A DNA stretch of 47,823 nucleotides, taken from IMG/VR virus record IMGVR_UViG_3300034374_010260, positions 1 through 47,823 of that record; one strand, 5' to 3'. This DNA is from a virus. The translations under genes were made by a program, and so were the position numbers. Under the pieces are notes generated by a model. It did no database searches and was not told the origin of the DNA. It worked only from the letters and a program-made list of their open reading frames with translations. Shown here in pieces: positions 1 to 47,731 of this stretch. Numbering within the stretch: position 1 is the first letter of the stretch; the number at the start of each line of letters is the position of its first letter.

Positions 1-10
1 CCCGCCGAAA

Positions 11-190
11 ATTTTTTAAAAAATAAAAGATTCCTTACTCTTTTAAAAATCTTTTTAAAATATCTTTTAAAATCTCTTTTAAAATCTTTTTTAAACTTTA
101 CCTTTAAAACATTTTTTAAACTAAGATTTTACCCTTTAAAATCGATTTTAAAACCTTTTTTAAAACTTATTTTTAAAACTTTTTTTAAAA
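11..190. repeat. Left array of TTTTAAAA palindromes
   Basis: This non-coding stretch is almost entirely runs of T followed by runs of A, separated by short C- or G-containing spacers. TTTTAAAA or the core TTTAAA recurs roughly every 12-20 bases, including an ATCGATTTTAAAA variant near 140. No open frame of note is present. The pattern matches the array at 1231-1512, so the two arrays bracket the gene pair at 259-1086. Such alternating T and A tracts are expected to be easily melted and to alter DNA curvature. Role unknown. Confidence 0.8.
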
Positions 191-203
191 AAATAAATAG
201 ACC

Positions 204-233
204 AAAAAAAAGAGAGAGGAAAAACCTCTCTCT
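204..233 (-). terminator. Intrinsic terminator ending the leftward transcription unit
   Basis: Perfect 9-bp stem: AGAGAGAGG at 211-219 and CCTCTCTCT at 225-233, with a 5-nt loop. Read on the minus strand the hairpin is followed by a run of seven T (204-210). It lies 26 nt past the stop of the 52-aa gene, which fits the end of a leftward transcript. Confidence 0.85.
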
Positions 234-258
234 TTATTAATTAAAACCTCTCTATTTA

Positions 259-417
259 TTAAATGGAATTTTTAATAACTTGATATCTTATCCGATTAAT
301 TTTTCTATCATGATGATCTAACATGAATTTTCGGAATCTTTCAAAACTAATTTCCTTTTTTGATTTTTTCAATGAGAAATCGAAGGATAAAAAATAAAGA
401 ATATCTTTTTTTAACAT
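259..417 (-). CDS. Small basic protein of unknown function (52 aa)
   Basis: ATG at 417, TAA at 259-261. A good Shine-Dalgarno (GAGGAAG) overlaps the stop of the upstream 218-aa gene and sits about 9 nt before the ATG, which supports translation and coupling to that gene. The peptide begins MLKKDILYF and is rich in Lys, Arg, Phe and Ile; HHDRKINRIRYQ near the end could bind nucleic acid. It contains no Ala or Thr, as the GY-free rule of this tract dictates. A terminator follows 26 nt downstream. No family recognised. Confidence 0.6.
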   Translation of the reverse strand: MLKKDILYFLSFDFSLKKSKKEISFERFRKFMLDHHDRKINRIRYQVIKNSI

Positions 418-429
418 TTTTAAACTTCC

Positions 430-1086
430 TCACGAAATTAATTTTTGAAAATTACCACTAGGAATTGGGGACATCCCCAAAATATCACCAAGACCATTGA
501 ATGACTTCAATAATTCTTTATCTTCATCATTTAAGAGATGATCATAAACTCCAGAACGGATATTCTTTCCTTTGGAATAACAAACTTTAGGGAAATCTGA
601 TAAACTAGGAAGGATATTTTGGGAGAGACTTCCATCCCCAACACTAGGATTCTCCATCTTATAGATTTTATAAAGGAGAACATCTCTCGATCTTAATTTG
701 ACTTCATTTCCTCTTCCTCTTCCCTTGGGGGATTCCTTTAGAGACGAAAAGAAAAATTCTTTAATTTCATCTTCTATCTTTAAAACTGAAATCATTTCTT
801 TAACCATATCACTTGGACTTTCAATTTCGGGAAATAGATTTTTGACTTCCTTAGAATTTACGAAATCTTGAATCTTATTAACTCTCTCTTTCCTTTTCTC
901 TTCCTCAAGGATGAAAGACTCTAATTCCCTATCTTCCTCTTCTCTTTTTCTCTTCAATTCCTCTTTTTTCCTCTCTATAGGATCGGAGATTTCGGACAAG
1001 GGAATTAGGACTTTTTCTTCTTTCTTTTCATCTTCCTTAGGACTAGAGATTACTTTTGAATTATTATTATTATTTGATTTACTCAT
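430..1086 (-). CDS. Charged coiled-coil protein of unknown function, no Ala or Thr (218 aa)
   Basis: The start is preceded by an AATAATAATAG leader like those before many other genes here, which supports the call. The N-terminus is a poly-Asn stretch (SKSNNNNNSK). It is followed by a highly charged Glu/Lys/Arg helix at about residues 38-75 (EEKRKERVNKI), probably coiled coil. The C-terminal half is more globular and includes PKGRGRGNEVKLRSRD, a basic patch that could contact nucleic acid. The protein has no Ala, Thr or Trp and one Cys. Asn, Asp, His and Tyr use only AAT, GAT, CAT and TAT, because coding-strand AC and GC are absent. Translation is probably coupled to the 52-aa gene downstream. 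No family recognised. Confidence 0.75.
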   Translation of the reverse strand: MSKSNNNNNSKVISSPKEDEKKEEKVLIPLSEISDPIERKKEELKRKREEEDRELESFILEEEKRKERVNKIQDFVNSKEVKNLFPEIESPSDMVKEMISVLKIEDEIKEFFFSSLKESPKGRGRGNEVKLRSRDVLLYKIYKMENPSVGDGSLSQNILPSLSDFPKVCYSKGKNIRSGVYDHLLNDEDKELLKSFNGLGDILGMSPIPSGNFQKLIS

Positions 1087-1113
1087 TTTTCTATTATTAT
1101 TTTGATTTTAGAA

Positions 1114-1140
1114 TATCAATCAAGACCATCTCGATTGATA
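1114..1140. promoter_or_regulatory. Inverted repeat upstream of the 218-aa gene (candidate operator)
   Basis: TATCAATC at 1114-1121 and GATTGATA at 1133-1140 are perfect 8-bp inverted half-sites, 11 bp apart, 28-54 nt upstream of the ATG at 1086. Centre-to-centre spacing of 19 bp (about two helical turns) suits a dimeric regulator. Regulatory role inferred from position. Confidence 0.45.
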
Positions 1141-1230
1141 AATAACAAAATAAGAAAATTTTAAAAATAGACAAGAAAAAAAATTATTAATATTTTAAAA
1201 CTTTCCTAAAACCTTGATTAATAGGAATTA

Positions 1231-1512
1231 ACTAAAATTAAAAAATTGACTTTTAAAACCTTAAAAAATCGATTTTTTAAAATTTAAAGATTTTCCCTCT
1301 CTTTTTTTCCTCTCTTTTTTCATCCCCTTTTTTCTCTCTTTTGAATCGATTTTTTAAAACCTTTTTTAAAACTTTTTTTTAAAACTTTTTTTTAAAACTT
1401 TTTTTTAAAACCTTATTTAAAAATTGATTTTAAACCTTCCCCCCCCCTTCCCTACTGAAAAAAATTTTTAAAACTTTTTTTAAAACCTTTTTTAATATTA
1501 TTTTTTAAAATC
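1231..1512. repeat. Right array of TTTTAAAA palindromes
   Basis: Non-coding DNA again made of T-run/A-run palindromes. A near-tandem unit of about 13 bp (AAAACTTTTTTTT) occurs about four times at 1366-1410, and ATCGATTTTTTAAAA appears twice (near 1267 and 1345). Pyrimidine-rich stretches (CCCTCTCTTTTTTTCC near 1294; a C-run near 1439) separate the blocks. With the left array it brackets the two GY-free genes. Nothing else is seen in 1141-1560 apart from these arrays. Confidence 0.8.
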
Positions 1513-1597
1513 TTTTATTTCCCTTTAATTAATATTTAAACCAAATAAAAAAAATCAGAACGAGTGCGACCCCCATAACGCCCATTGCGCGTATGTA

Positions 1598-1659
1598 CAC
1601 GAAAATCCGTTGCCGAAATCCGTTGCCTACGCATACCGTATATCACGAAAATCCGTTGC
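1598..1659. repeat. Three direct repeats containing GCAACGGATTT (iteron-like)
   Basis: On the plus strand CACGAAAATCCGTTGC occurs exactly at 1598-1613 and 1644-1659, with a shorter copy CGAAATCCGTTGC at 1614-1626. The cluster starts 35 nt right of the GY-free boundary and lies in the intergenic gap after the DUF3150-like gene. The core word GGCAACG is also scattered through the minus-strand genes. Candidate initiator- or partition-protein sites; this is inference. Confidence 0.6.
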
Positions 1660-1660
1660 T

Positions 1661-1696
1661 AAAAAAAGGGGGAGGGCATTACACCCATCCCCCCTT
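1661..1696 (-). terminator. Intrinsic terminator after the ATPase/VWA/DUF3150 operon
   Basis: Read on the minus strand, a G-rich arm (AAGGGGGGATGGG) pairs with CCCTCCCCCTT, with two small bulges and a 7-nt loop. A run of seven T follows (1661-1667). It lies 25 nt past the stop of the DUF3150-like gene. Confidence 0.75.
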
Positions 1697-1720
1697 ATTA
1701 GGGCAGAGGTAGACTATATA

Positions 1721-2718: not shown

Positions 2719-3945
2719 TTACATGTGGATTACATCACCATACGGAGGCGAGAAATTCTTATCTCCAGTGTCAGTGATAATCCACACAACCTCACAGCAT
2801 GGGGTATCGGGGAAATCCCAACCATAACCGTCTGTGATATATACCATACCCATAGGAGGGTCTTTCTGCAGTTCTTCAAACACGGGGGTGAATAAAGTAC
2901 CACCTCTACCTGCTGGTTTAGTGACTTGACCCTCATGCTCGATGGTTTCGACTTTCTGCACTCTTGAATCACAATAGATGACTTTGAGCGATGCATCTTC
3001 TTGACCATTCTCCATGAATGTTGCCAGACCTGCGAACACCTCTGATACAGCTTGTTGCAAATCTTTATCTGACATAGAACCCGAAGTGTCGATACCTACT
3101 GCGATATCCGCGAACGCTTCAGATCGAAGAGATGGCATAACCATTCTCCTCTGAATGTGTATTGGATTTGGGTGACTAAATGAATAATCACCACCGCAGA
3201 AACCCTCAACCCACCTAGCGAGTAGCGATCTCCAATCAACTACTGGTTCTAATAACTCATTGAACGCAGCTTCGATATTAGACGGCATCTTACCTTGCGC
3301 TTTCGCGACAGATATGGCTTGCTTTACCATCACTTTGGTTTCTGCTTCTAGTTCACTTTCATCCACACCATTTGGGTTTGGATGTTGCTCTACTACACCG
3401 ATTGATTGTTCATACAATTCATCAATCTTTTCTTGCATCGGATTATTAGAACTTCCATTGTTACTGTCATCGTTGCCACTATCAGATGATTGATTAGATG
3501 TATCATCATCTTCTGATTCTTGTTGATCTTGGTCGTCATCTTTTTCTTTGGATAACTCTTTCTGCAAATCTGAGTATATTCTCTCGGAACTCATACCTGC
3601 ATACTTGGGGTCTAACAACTTCTCATCAGGCAATTGGAACGGGTGACTATCAATGAATTGATTGATTGCATAATCACACGCAACATTGAACAACTTATGG
3701 TCTCGATCACCTTTACGCAGATGATGAAGGTTTGTCACATGGAGTGCTTCATGACATAACAGCGTCATTCTGACTCGCGGAGAGAACTTTGCATACCACT
3801 CAGGGTCATACTTTATCTCGACACCATTGATACCTAGCGTACCCATACCCTCTGCGGGAACAAGTTTGTGCTTTAACAATATCGTTGCGAAAAACGGATG
3901 CTCTATGATTAGGCGCATCCTATCTTTTGACATTAAATCAGACAT
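2719..3945 (-). CDS. Metallopeptidase-like / VWA domain protein (DUF2201 type)
   Basis: 408 aa. The N-terminal half carries a zinc-peptidase-like HExxH (HEALH, residues 65-69), with HHLRKGD shortly after, as in the putative metallopeptidase domain of DUF2201 proteins. A very acidic, Ser/Asn-rich linker follows (about 130-170). The C-terminal half is a von Willebrand A domain with the MIDAS motif DTSGS in VGIDTSGSMSD, and TDGYGW later. In this family the two halves occur together and pair with MoxR-type ATPases, which usually act as chaperones that remodel or insert metals. The ATG overlaps the end of the ATPase gene, so the two are translationally coupled. Confidence 0.85.
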   Translation of the reverse strand: MSDLMSKDRMRLIIEHPFFATILLKHKLVPAEGMGTLGINGVEIKYDPEWYAKFSPRVRMTLLCHEALHVTNLHHLRKGDRDHKLFNVACDYAINQFIDSHPFQLPDEKLLDPKYAGMSSERIYSDLQKELSKEKDDDQDQQESEDDDTSNQSSDSGNDDSNNGSSNNPMQEKIDELYEQSIGVVEQHPNPNGVDESELEAETKVMVKQAISVAKAQGKMPSNIEAAFNELLEPVVDWRSLLARWVEGFCGGDYSFSHPNPIHIQRRMVMPSLRSEAFADIAVGIDTSGSMSDKDLQQAVSEVFAGLATFMENGQEDASLKVIYCDSRVQKVETIEHEGQVTKPAGRGGTLFTPVFEELQKDPPMGMVYITDGYGWDFPDTPCCEVVWIITDTGDKNFSPPYGDVIHM

Positions 3946-4957
3946 TGTTCATATGGTTGTAGAGATCAGATGACCATTCAACATATTCTGGTGTATTGAA
4001 CACTTTTTCTTGGTGCCTACCCTCGACATCTTTTAGAAGTAAGACTTGGAACTCTTCTGGTAATCTTTTACGACCCCACTTACTGATGTTTGACCACTTA
4101 TCTAAATTACCACTCATATGGGCAAGCGCACCACATAGAGCGTACAGCGTATCGGGAGAGGCGGGACATGACTCATCGTTGCCATCTGCGATCTGGCGAG
4201 GTTTATCACCTAATCCGTGGACTATCTTTAAGAACCCGATCAACTCCGCAGCAAACGACTCACCGACACAACCTGTAAGTACATCATAATCTTGAATACC
4301 ATAATTTAATAATCGACCGCAAGCTGCCACCGTACGAGGACATGGTTGATTGACTAAATCCTCACCCGTACTATCTACATGCGATGGATCGAATTTCATT
4401 AAGAGTTCGGGACGAAACCTAATGAATGCGACTAACTCAGGTGGCATATTATTATTACCTGCCCACTTACACCAGTCATCGACATTGACTTCTGCACGGA
4501 CGATGGTTGTAAACCTACTTAATAGAGGCTTAATTAGACCTTTAACACCTGCACGATCTTTTCTACTATTCGTTGCTGCACAGAACACTACCTTATCTGA
4601 TATCTTATGCTCGTTTACTTTACGAGATAAGAACAACTGCATTAGGGCACCTTGGACAGATTGCGTCGCCTGACCCAGATCATCGAAAAAGGCGACTGTC
4701 GGCTTGTCGGCTTCCAATAACTTTCTTAATTGGGAATAAGGAAGGAATACAGCGTTGCCGTCTGACTCACATGGAAGACCTTTATAATTCGTGGGATCAT
4801 CGACTACAGGGTGAAAGATCACCACATCGTGATTAATCTCTTCACATGCTTGTTCTACTACATCGGTTTTACCTAATCCTGGTTCACCGACTATTAATAC
4901 TGGTTCACCCTCATTGAAGAGGCGTACTAGATTTGATTTTAACTTTGATGGTTTCAT
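3938..4957 (-). CDS. MoxR-like AAA+ ATPase
   Basis: 339 aa, a single AAA+ module. Walker A is GEPGLGKT (24-31), Walker B is TVAFFDDLG (87-95), and a sensor-1-like segment CAATNSRKD follows, with an arginine-rich FIRFRPELL region later. It is the first gene of the ATPase/VWA/DUF3150 set, and its stop overlaps the VWA start. MoxR ATPases work with VWA partners to remodel target complexes; the phage target is unknown. The start is preceded by a (CAA)n then (AAT)n leader with no Shine-Dalgarno. It reads as a complete enzyme. Confidence 0.88.
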   Translation of the reverse strand: MKPSKLKSNLVRLFNEGEPVLIVGEPGLGKTDVVEQACEEINHDVVIFHPVVDDPTNYKGLPCESDGNAVFLPYSQLRKLLEADKPTVAFFDDLGQATQSVQGALMQLFLSRKVNEHKISDKVVFCAATNSRKDRAGVKGLIKPLLSRFTTIVRAEVNVDDWCKWAGNNNMPPELVAFIRFRPELLMKFDPSHVDSTGEDLVNQPCPRTVAACGRLLNYGIQDYDVLTGCVGESFAAELIGFLKIVHGLGDKPRQIADGNDESCPASPDTLYALCGALAHMSGNLDKWSNISKWGRKRLPEEFQVLLLKDVEGRHQEKVFNTPEYVEWSSDLYNHMNNV

Positions 4958-44478: not shown

Positions 44479-45384
44479 TTAATCAGCTCTTAATGCTTCA
44501 AACTTTAATTTTTCTGATCCTATTTCGGGTATTCTTCCCAAGAAGAACTTGAGCCAGATTGCGCCTAGTGGCTTTGGTGGTCTCCCTTTTTCCATATGAA
44601 ACCCCGAATCCTTGACACCATACTCATTTTTGTAAGTAGGTATTTTGATATGCAATTGTTCATCAATATATTCTTTACCATCCTGAGTAATGCGAGCCCT
44701 AGCATTAGGCAGAATCCAATGATCATGAGTATGACCAGTAGCAACGATGTTAGCGTCTGGCAGGACAACGCCCATACGATTTGCACCAATGACCCCCTTT
44801 GTGACGGGTCCACCTCCTCCTGCCCCGTGGAACATATATAACCATACTGTCCCAAGGCTCCTTGATTTCGCATCTTTCTTATGTCTTCCTCTAATTCCGA
44901 TCCAATTAGCGATTTGACCTGTTTTGACGGTTGCATTTGTTTTTCCATTTAATGAATTAACCAGCCTTTCTGTTAAATCTGTTTCTCTGTGCTTATATAC
45001 AGCAGTTTCATGGTTCCCTTTACCCATGACTAAAATATTTGAAGCATATGGCTTGAGCCACTCCGAATATGTATCGACCAATTTATCTAGGTAATTGCCT
45101 CCCTTGTGCTCCAACTTAATATCATTCTTGCTCGCTCTCGGGTCGCCCTTTCCTTGCATAGCGCAAAAGGCATCACCATTATCTAGAATAAACGCTTTCT
45201 TTTTTATAGCCTCCTCTAAGTGCCTTTTCTCCATAGCATTATCGGAGTGCGGATTATCATGGTGTGCATCACTTCTCAACAAGCACCAGATCGGTTTGTT
45301 AATTTGCTTTGTCTCAAATGTTATATCCACGAAAAAGATGCCTTCTGACACCTTCCTGATTTTGAAAGGTTTATCATCTTTCAT
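44479..45384 (-). CDS. Calcineurin-like metallophosphoesterase
   Basis: 301 aa. Metal-binding motifs in order: LLRSDAHHD, LDNGDAFC, GKGNHETAV, YMFHGAGGG and VATGHTHDHW. Complete and likely active. Substrate unknown; phage enzymes of this type act on nucleic acids or nucleotides. It sits between a glycosyltransferase-like gene and the large terminase, so it may belong to a DNA-modification or DNA-end-processing set. Starts by 1-nt overlap with the upstream stop. Confidence 0.88.
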   Translation of the reverse strand: MKDDKPFKIRKVSEGIFFVDITFETKQINKPIWCLLRSDAHHDNPHSDNAMEKRHLEEAIKKKAFILDNGDAFCAMQGKGDPRASKNDIKLEHKGGNYLDKLVDTYSEWLKPYASNILVMGKGNHETAVYKHRETDLTERLVNSLNGKTNATVKTGQIANWIGIRGRHKKDAKSRSLGTVWLYMFHGAGGGGPVTKGVIGANRMGVVLPDANIVATGHTHDHWILPNARARITQDGKEYIDEQLHIKIPTYKNEYGVKDSGFHMEKGRPPKPLGAIWLKFFLGRIPEIGSEKLKFEALRAD

Positions 45385-46130
45385 TACACGCCTCCTATTG
45401 GTATTTTTATTATAGGGTTTATATCATAGGTGACTTGTCGCTTTCTTTGCGTATTTGAGTTCCCTTTATCTCTCCTAACTATATCTTTTCCCCACTTCTT
45501 TTCTAATAACTCAAACTGGTCTTTCTCTTCGTCTAAAGTCCTATACTCTGCACACCCCCCAATATTAGTATGTTGCTCACAAATATAATGAACATGATTA
45601 ATTCGTAATATTTTTCTATACTTGTTGAGCATTTGAAGGCTAAGATCATAATCCTCCTTTAATGGAAGGTTTTCGTCATACCTACAACTAGGGTTAAGAA
45701 AGCCACCAAACGGTCCTAGTATAACATTCGTCAAACTAAATGGAGTGTACTCTCTATAAGCACCTTTATCTTGTATAATGTTAACACCCCACATCTTAAC
45801 GCCAAATTGTTCGGCAAGCATAAACCCATACTCAATAAATTCTTCAGCTTCATCCCCGCTCATTTTATGACACTCGTTGCCATTCCACCTTGAGAGGCAC
45901 TTTAAATCATCATCTACAATGCAGACATTCTCTTTTTTAGCATAATCAAGTATCCAGTTCCTAACCCTGCTTACATTGCCTTGATCCTTATCCTGGCATG
46001 CCAATACAGGCAAACCTTTGTCTAAGTAGCTCTTCTCCTGCGACTTACAAACTACATATTTAAGGCTGGGGAAATACTTATGGGAAGTGCAAATGTCAGC
46101 CCTCTTCCAACTGGGAGCTAAGATCATCAT
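45384..46130 (-). CDS. GT-A-fold glycosyltransferase-like protein
   Basis: 248 aa. MMILAPSWKRADICTSHKYF at the start and NVCIVDDDLKCLSRW (acidic DDD, metal/nucleotide-sugar site, about 72-76) are typical of phage GT-A enzymes. GGFLNPSCRYDENLPLKEDY DLS (an ED acceptor-base region) follows. It resembles TET-associated glycosyltransferases, which add sugars to hypermodified pyrimidines, but that subfamily is not certain. Next to ParB-like and phosphoesterase genes. ATGA overlap with the ParB-like gene. Confidence 0.65.
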   Translation of the reverse strand: MMILAPSWKRADICTSHKYFPSLKYVVCKSQEKSYLDKGLPVLACQDKDQGNVSRVRNWILDYAKKENVCIVDDDLKCLSRWNGNECHKMSGDEAEEFIEYGFMLAEQFGVKMWGVNIIQDKGAYREYTPFSLTNVILGPFGGFLNPSCRYDENLPLKEDYDLSLQMLNKYRKILRINHVHYICEQHTNIGGCAEYRTLDEEKDQFELLEKKWGKDIVRRDKGNSNTQRKRQVTYDINPIIKIPIGGV

Positions 46131-46735
46131 TTCTTGTTTAAACTCCTAATGTAATCCGATCCCTTTATTACTCGTCCAATGCCCTTACTCCACGGCTTAC
46201 CATTAGCTCTACGAGAATGAACAGAATCAAGGTTAAAATGGGTTTGGGCAGATAGCCAATCAACATCATTGTCGAATGTCAGAACTACATAATTATGCGA
46301 CTCATCAATGTACTCTGAAAACTTAACTTCTGGCTCTTCCTCTGCATCATCTTCGGTTAACTCCTTCAACACATCGTCAGCCTCAAATCCCCAATCAATC
46401 AAATCTTCGGGGTCAAAATTATTGGCAAGCAAATCCCAATCCCACTGCCCACCATTCTTGTTCATGCGTACATTTAATTCCTTTTCTTTCGCTAATGGCA
46501 ACTTGACCTCTACGCAAGGTACGGTGTCATTGCCCATTTCAGACCAGATACGCAATCGCTGATGTCCACCTATAACTATATTTTCTCGCCCCTTGTGCAT
46601 GTTGACGAGTACAGGCTCAACTAAGCCAAATTTTTGTAAGCTATTTTTTAAGTCCTCATATTGCTTTTTAGTAAGCTCCCTCGGATTATATTCGCTTGGC
46701 TTTAATGCACCTATTTTTTTATCTACAGTTTTCAT
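46127..46735 (-). CDS. ParB-like nuclease-domain protein
   Basis: 202 aa. N-terminal ParB/sulfiredoxin-like domain: LKPSEYNPRELTKKQYEDLK, KFGLVEPVLVNMHKG, NIVIGGHQRLRIWSEMG. The GGHQR motif is the signature loop. The acidic C-terminus (LTEDDAEEEPEVKFSEYIDE) is followed by a short folded end. In phages these proteins are usually encoded beside methyltransferases or other modification enzymes and terminases. Here the partner is a glycosyltransferase. Confidence 0.85.
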   Translation of the reverse strand: MKTVDKKIGALKPSEYNPRELTKKQYEDLKNSLQKFGLVEPVLVNMHKGRENIVIGGHQRLRIWSEMGNDTVPCVEVKLPLAKEKELNVRMNKNGGQWDWDLLANNFDPEDLIDWGFEADDVLKELTEDDAEEEPEVKFSEYIDESHNYVVLTFDNDVDWLSAQTHFNLDSVHSRRANGKPWSKGIGRVIKGSDYIRSLNKK

Positions 46736-47130
46736 AATCTTTTTCGTTGACCCCTCCCTTTTATGCTGAACTTTTCAGAGAACTTAATTGCTTGTTTACT
46801 AAGAGATTGCTTGTAGACATTCACACCCTTTGACTTTGCTATCTCCGACAAAGCCAATCCGTTGAATAATTCAGGTCTAAGAACCCAGCACATAGCTATT
46901 GTCTTACGCATTAATGTCTGTCCATAACTTGCTGAATTAACATCACCCATGGTCAACCAAGTGAGCATTTCTCTCAATACTTCACCCAATTGCTGTACCG
47001 AGTCTGGATCATAATTTGGCTCTTCATACTCCCCATCTATTGAGTCATAGTCAAAGTTATGGCACTGACCATCTGTTTGAAAGTCAGCTCTATTTTCGTC
47101 AAAGTGATATAAAGAATTATTTTTCCCCAT
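46732..47130 (-). CDS. Phage HTH-containing protein, unassigned (132 aa)
   Basis: I choose ATG at 47130 (MGKNNSLYHFDE), overlapping the small terminase end; a start 6 codons further upstream is possible. Acidic, Tyr/Asp-rich N-terminus (YDSIDGEYEEPNYDPDSV), a helical middle (EVLREMLTWLTMGD) and a C-terminal helix-turn-helix (LALSEIAKSKGVNVYKQSLS) with a basic end (KGRGQRKRL). Conserved-type gene next to terminase; may help DNA recognition in packaging. Confidence 0.65.
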   Translation of the reverse strand: MGKNNSLYHFDENRADFQTDGQCHNFDYDSIDGEYEEPNYDPDSVQQLGEVLREMLTWLTMGDVNSASYGQTLMRKTIAMCWVLRPELFNGLALSEIAKSKGVNVYKQSLSKQAIKFSEKFSIKGRGQRKRL

Positions 47131-47731
47131 TTGCCCATTCCCCCTCATGCAAAGATCGCAATGCCTCTACGATACTTTGTTTAATTATCTTTTCTGCTTC
47201 TGCAACAGTTTGACCGATAACTTGTGGGGCTAGGGAAGAGGGTAGGGCAAGGAGCTCCCTTTTGGCTTGCTGAACCATTTCGGCAACTTGCTGGTCTATG
47301 TCTACATTAGGCGTATATTCGCCTTTTAATATCCCTACCTGTATTTCTAACTTCTCATTCTGTAATAATATGCTCTTGACTTGCGCAGATTCTTTGCTGG
47401 TTAAATCACCAGCCGTCGATCCCTTTGCATCCTTCCACGCCACCGCTTCACTTACACTATAACGACCATCCGCTCTAGGCTTTGGGAATGTAGGGTCTTT
47501 CCTCCACCTTTGAATAGTTTTCCTATCGACCCCAATTACCTTTGCTAACTCTGTTTGATTCTTTGCGTATGCCCCACTAAATCCAATTTTACTAGATGCA
47601 GTATATTGATCTAGTAATTCCATCTCCATGTTGGTCGGAGTTTTCCCCTCTCTTATTTTTGTAAGTATATTATTAACAACCTTTTGCTTTACCTTCTCGG
47701 CATTTTCCTCAGTAATTAAAGTTGCACCCAT
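47117..47731 (-). CDS. Terminase small subunit (Nu1-like)
   Basis: 204 aa. wHTH of the Nu1 type at about residues 60-97 (QTELAKVIGVDRKTIQRWRK, then DGRYSVSEAVAWK), a charged linker helix (SAQVKSILLQNEKLEIQVG) and a C-terminal helical multimerisation/partner region (MVQQAKRELLALPSSL; EKIIKQSIVEALRSLHE). It binds the packaging site and recruits the large subunit four genes downstream. First gene of the visible leftward late module; the region to the right (47732-47823) holds no gene. Confidence 0.85.
   Translation of the reverse strand: MGATLITEENAEKVKQKVVNNILTKIREGKTPTNMEMELLDQYTASSKIGFSGAYAKNQTELAKVIGVDRKTIQRWRKDPTFPKPRADGRYSVSEAVAWKDAKGSTAGDLTSKESAQVKSILLQNEKLEIQVGILKGEYTPNVDIDQQVAEMVQQAKRELLALPSSLAPQVIGQTVAEAEKIIKQSIVEALRSLHEGEWANGEK

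Follow-up and report, generated by a model that had tools for sequence, protein, structure and literature searches.

A clade of cos-type phages keeps a right-end genome module under selection against purine-cytosine steps on the coding strand

Why should one end of a phage genome carry no cytosine preceded by a purine on its coding strand? We examined this question in a 47,823-nt stretch of viral DNA (hereafter the window; IMG/VR record IMGVR_UViG_3300034374_010260, positions 1 to 47,823), for which an earlier note, made from the sequence alone, had claimed a tract without plus-strand GC or GT. Direct dinucleotide counting bore this out, with zero GC and zero GT between positions 6 and 1563 and no GY turned up by the recount. 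The note's rule that every G is followed by A or G was also correct, although its hand count of about 127 G residues was slightly off: the tract contains 128, followed by A (94) or G (34) and never by C or T. Read on the minus strand, which is the coding strand, C thus never follows a purine (RC, i.e., AC and GC, is absent). Both borders are exact, since the closest GY steps are a GC at 4-5 and a GT at 1564-1565, the latter matching the sharp stop that the note had placed at 1564; the runner-up GY-free run within the window measures 130 nt. With the steps of other DNA of the phage family as background (AC, 11.5% of A-steps; GC, 18.6% of G-steps), the chance of finding zero RC on the minus strand of the tract is ~1e-57 (own arithmetic). 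The excluded unit is the dinucleotide, every RC context being missing, and the rule is asymmetric, as previously claimed: AC is absent from the minus strand whereas its frequency on the plus strand is normal (67 occurrences, observed/expected 0.76). As a separate observation involving small numbers, CTG occurs in the tracts at about half its expected frequency (14 vs 34 expected; background ratio 0.89).

The right genome end and its genes

The features of the window that bear on the tract, all on the minus strand, are the following.

1-7 (-): right cohesive-end (cos) border CGGCGGG, which joins window end 47823 with ~8 nt missing (from contig ends; GGTTTCGAGAGG starts contigs L004 and L011)
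6-1563 (-): RC-free tract, forming the right genome end (dinucleotide count; same feature in other lineages)
25-36 (-): cos-associated element AAGGAATCTTTT, 19-20 nt before CGGGTT, seen in tract phages and other phages
41-190 (-): downstream array of 12-13 nt repeats of the same kind as those of the upstream array (sequence)
204-234 (-): intrinsic-terminator-like hairpin AGAGAGAGG-TTTTT-CCTCTCTCT-T run, without RC, identical in L001
259-417 (-): second tract ORF, 52 aa, no Ala and no Thr, present in L005 too (sequence)
430-1086 (-): P0001, a 218-aa tract protein with a predicted coiled coil and C-terminal homeodomain-like helical domain, no Ala and no Thr (AlphaFold2 model, sequence)
1350-1516 (-): upstream array of 12-13 nt repeats of AAAAAAGGTTTT type (sequence)
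1564-1700 (-): flank with abrupt return of RC and three GCAACGGAT copies (plus ATCCGTTGC at 1605, 1618 and 1651; sequence)
2719-4957 (-): VWA/DUF2201 protein and AAA ATPase, left of the tract, kept in tract phages L006, L009 and L010
42691-44472 (-): terminase large subunit, lambda gpA family (PF05876/PF20454)
45384-46130 (-): TAGT-family glycosyltransferase, in all tract phages (PF20691, E 8.6e-8)
46127-46735 (-): ParB_N-domain protein (domain match)
47117-47731 (-): terminase small subunit, first gene at the left genome end (phrog_57)

The two ends of the window adjoin one another in a related contig (L001). Two other contigs (L004 and L011) start at GGTTTCGAGAGG and many stop at CGGGTT plus 8 nt, from which we infer a 12-nt, lambda-like cohesive end with a 12-nt overhang at cos. 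That many contigs stop exactly 8 nt after CGGGTT marks a physical genome end and, together with the lambda gpA-type terminase, the joining at cos identifies the tract as the right genome end; the left end holds the terminase genes. A gpA-type terminase and fixed cohesive ends are the traits of a lambda-like cos phage. The arrangement AAGGAATCTTTT-N19/20-CGGGTT is common to many other phages without the tract, and the spacing in the cos core AAGGAATCTTTTN{17,23}CGGGTT is constant across phages of very different genomes (viral contigs L013-L071). At the left end, the product of 44479-45384 (-) shows, by eye, the motifs of a calcineurin-like metallophosphoesterase (HH, GD, GNHE, GHTH) and is ~70-82% conserved beside the terminase in both tract and tract-less relatives. 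ParB_N followed directly by the TAGT glycosyltransferase is a recurrent pair in unrelated phages (window 45384-46735 (-), L085 14807-16158, L086 43576-44981) and adjoins the large terminase in Javan291.

A coiled-coil protein gene is found in each tract whose left part is preserved, where the intrinsic-terminator hairpins are likewise built without RC, and the protein combines a coiled coil with a C-terminal helical domain in every lineage in which this part of the gene is visible; several contigs break at or inside the tract. In the AlphaFold2 model of P0001 (mean pLDDT 71), a long helix is accompanied by a helical domain at the C-terminus; this domain best resembles, though modestly, the Pax paired domain (Z 6.1) and CENP-B (Z 3.6), so that binding of DNA by P0001 is a reasonable inference from the model. 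Family searches with P0001 gave no significant hit in Pfam, PHROGs, NCBIfam, phages or plasmids, viral structures provided no significant fold match, and searches for RNA families and tRNAs were negative. The pooled tract proteins (1,425 residues) contain 1 Ala and 1 Thr. Short phage-specific repeats lie near the tract ends, namely AAAAAAGGTTTT in the window, AAATTAGTAA in L009/L010, TGTGTGTATG in L006 and TATTTAGTGTAAATATG in L031, the latter also at the right end of L008. Candidate gene promoters occur inside the tract (consensus matches only), and only in L009/L010 does a clear sigma70-like promoter coincide with the tract border.

One feature in six related lineages

The same feature occupies the same genome place in six or more phage lineages, recovered from separate metagenomes. 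L001, the second contig, was found by searching with P0001, and its tract contains RC only in a single 11-nt cluster. The large terminase, used as query, led to further relatives, with RC-free runs of 1315 (L006), 1345 (L008) and 1252 nt (L010) and an interrupted one in L009; the tract of L031 was found by searching for the cos element. In all, substantial tracts are known from six lineages, represented by seven contigs, among which window/L001 form a close pair and L009/L010 a second pair. The number of RC per tract is 0 in the window, L010 and L008, 1 in L006, 3 in L009, and 4 in both L031 and L005, and the exceptions are mostly clustered within a few bases (L005, 632-642; L009, 5063-5066; three in L031 near the end of the tract ORF). 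The pooled tracts thus contain 12 RC in 8.4 kb where background step frequencies predict ~650 (own arithmetic), an under-representation beyond composition as in restriction-site avoidance. The tract sequences themselves are largely dissimilar between lineages and keep the RC rule nonetheless.

These independent contigs from other metagenomes dispose of a data or assembly fault, one of the causes proposed in the earlier note. A foreign element, another of its candidates, is not needed, the tract lying at a fixed place beside cos throughout a clade; for the same reason, we discarded the mobile element in unrelated phages that L001 had first led us to suspect, as the tract position is fixed and the phages are related. 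We scanned 163 loci, among them numerous cos phages without a tract and numerous further TAGT phages, for all 48 dinucleotide classes and found no comparable run in the ~140 other phage loci, the best unrelated score being 21 vs 27-101 for the tract phages. The strongest unrelated run was a stretch of 143 nt without GG/TG at a contig start (L108, 1-143). Among relatives without a tract, the closest (terminase 73%) are without the ParB/TAGT pair as well; where their right end is visible (L081), it carries no tract. Scanning GTDB genomes with the terminase alignment retrieved no relative, and the nearest cultured relatives are distant only.

Selection against RC, probably at the level of DNA

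The earlier note had suggested that RC-to-RT changes might separate relatives. In the L009/L010 alignment, however, positions after a purine comprise 137 T/T, 40 T/A or T/G and a single C/T, whereas those after a pyrimidine comprise 55 C/C and 34 C/T. The common T/A and T/G changes and the near absence of C/T after purines indicate that these positions evolve, but not toward C. Nor has the missing C been replaced by T: at four-fold glycine sites (GGN), T amounts to 31% in the tracts (GGT 26/83) vs 37% T plus 15% C elsewhere, while Val is at 0.79x, Ser at 1.6x and Ile at 1.5x in the tract proteins. After pyrimidines, C is undepleted (TC 20% vs 16% in the background). Since a C-to-T process would raise both T and Val, and neither is raised, a saturated deaminase footprint is disfavoured, contrary to what the earlier note had considered: RT changes freely to RA or RG and not to RC. 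These data establish continuing selection against RC, and thus a cos-type phage clade that keeps a 1.2-1.6 kb right-end module, between flank and cos, under selection against coding-strand RC. Selection per site need not have been strong, as a small cost per RC would be enough in a large population.

The left flank is RC-rich in L006, L009 and L010 and not clearly so in the window, L008 and L031; as it is clear in only three of six lineages, we rejected RC enrichment of the flank as a general feature. Conservation of the flank RC in L009/L010 suggests that RC is a signal there.

The rule covers coding and non-coding DNA alike, as already claimed from the sequence. In the 1109 nt that precede the first gene by 90 nt or more there are 2 RC vs 83 expected, and in the 5.5 kb around the tract genes 6 vs 435 expected; the exclusion is weaker between the last terminator and the cos element (49 vs 165 expected). 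Because non-coding DNA is equally RC-free, a codon- or tRNA-level cause is ruled out. The upstream exclusion, together with the candidate promoters inside the tract, favours a cause at the DNA level, although some transcripts may start from the tract border.

What might read purine-C on one strand?

Several known systems resemble parts of this pattern. The first-step-transfer DNA of phage T5 is devoid of EcoRI sites and, as here, leading DNA has been purged of a restriction target that is kept in the remaining genome; however, that target is a palindromic duplex site avoided on both strands, whereas the one studied here is a strand-specific dinucleotide. To our knowledge, site avoidance has so far concerned sites of several bases, never a dinucleotide. 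Phage T7 escapes EcoP15I by having all 36 sites in one orientation (PMC12707154), a one-way arrangement that confers insensitivity to an enzyme needing two opposed sites. The tract shares this single orientation of the Type III systems (normal AC on the plus strand, none on the minus strand) but not their 5-6 nt recognition site, all RC contexts being missing; in T7 a 6-nt site is biased genome-wide, whereas here a 2-nt class is totally absent from a bounded 1.2-1.6 kb end module. McrBC targets RmC (PMC12707154), and the argument of the earlier note against it holds: avoidance would be needed on both strands, and the plus strand retains its AC. More generally, because plus-strand AC persists, the rule cannot stem from ordinary recognition of duplex DNA on whichever strand the site lies.

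We tentatively favour the view that the module is a target-free leading end avoiding a strand-polar, cytosine-directed enzyme that acts at this end. Coding-strand RC would be the target of that enzyme on the right genome end. Dependence on a given 5' neighbour of the cytosine is typical of base-flipping cytosine enzymes, and it fits a methylase, a deaminase, a glycosyltransferase or a modification-dependent nuclease. For the rule to hold on one strand only, the enzyme would have to act on single-stranded DNA, or track along DNA and read it with strand polarity. The module would probably enter the cell first, carrying, with its own promoter and terminators, the gene for a DNA-binding-like protein, and might survive until this protein, or circularisation, ends the danger to the remaining genome, where RC is normal. 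This reading draws on the lambda-like cos position, where many contigs end, the maintenance of the rule in dissimilar tracts, the RC-forbidding substitutions, the GGN codons in which T has not taken the place of C, the upstream non-coding exclusion, the recurrence of the coiled-coil gene and the tract-less end of the relatives devoid of ParB/TAGT. Entry of the right end first is the usual model for lambda. According to one lambda study, either end may be ejected first in vitro (PMC10287942), which makes 'first to enter' uncertain. Our analysis identified no RC-specific enzyme behind the tract.

Avoidance might instead operate on RNA, if an RC-cutting RNase is active during infection and the tract transcripts must survive it, for instance so that an inhibitor can be made, or go uncut by a host-shutoff RNase of the phage. 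In agreement with this, all tract genes have the RC-free strand as their sense strand, and the depletion weakens after the last terminator. However, the exclusion is just as strong in DNA that precedes the gene by 90 nt or more, candidate gene promoters (consensus matches only) are found within the tract, and the window and L010 are RC-free well beyond their terminators; we know of no RNase with RC specificity and consider this explanation unlikely.

Exclusion of primase offers another route to a one-strand rule, as a GY-free bottom strand would be unprimable and the tract would stay single-stranded or be copied only from outside. T4/T7-type primases begin their primers on template GY (pppRpC). 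T4 primase, with start sites GTT and GCT (PMC10359460), is the best known natural one-strand GY reader, and the left flank of three lineages is rich in RC, the equivalent of GY on the opposite strand. Nevertheless, T4 primase needs a third base, and why one primer here would do harm has no known reason. Moreover, Pfam scans detected no primase gene among the larger window ORFs, and the DnaC-like loader of the phage implies host DnaG, which usually starts on CTG-like sites. We regard primase exclusion as quite unlikely.

The ParB and TAGT proteins of the phage itself could modify the C of RC, perhaps strand-specifically during packaging, in which case the tract would have to stay unmodified for transcription or to escape modification-dependent enzymes such as McrBC, which reads RmC. 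The pair is present in all tract phages and missing from the terminase-73% relatives, the TAGT family takes its name from the glycosylation of DNA bases, and ParBc genes are found alongside genes for cytosine modification (PMC12783734). As in TET/TAGT hypermodification phages, a TAGT and a ParB gene lie beside the terminase; in contrast with these phages, Pfam scans of the larger window ORFs detected no TET/JBP dioxygenase, methyltransferase (C5-methyltransferases included) or hydroxymethylase. The pair also occurs in the tract-less Streptococcus and Microbacterium phages Javan291 and Jayden, so it is insufficient for the tract, and beyond the clade's own loci none of the 80 TAGT loci has one. 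Its presence/absence pattern is that of a single clade event, and the association therefore rests on one clade, which leaves this modification doubtful as the cause.

Saturated mutation by an RC-preferring deaminase that turned every RC of that strand into RT is very improbable: RC preference is that of AID-type enzymes, AID/APOBEC-hypermutated sequences share the one-strand dependence on the 5' neighbour of cytosine, and C/T changes after purines are nearly absent, but conversion predicts ~52% GGT and a raised Val, the adjacent flank is RC-enriched rather than depleted in three lineages, and the tract shows no conversion to T, keeps its coding capacity and maintains the rule in diverged lineages.

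The most far-reaching view, that a previously undescribed enzyme or process reads purine-C from just one DNA strand at the cos end, and that these phages answered with a self-contained, signal-free module carrying an adapted DNA-binding gene, is in our estimation only a little short of an even call. We found no description of a one-strand RC-free feature in the open-access literature, and we know of no described counterpart to the complete exclusion of a dinucleotide class from one strand over more than 1 kb, kept by selection in diverged phages. The tract brings to light selection at phage genome ends that is powerful enough to strip two amino acids, Ala and Thr, from proteins. The combination of RC, strand and segment provides a precise, testable handle for finding the responsible enzyme, which might turn out to be a new defence, a DNA modification of a new kind or a replication rule.
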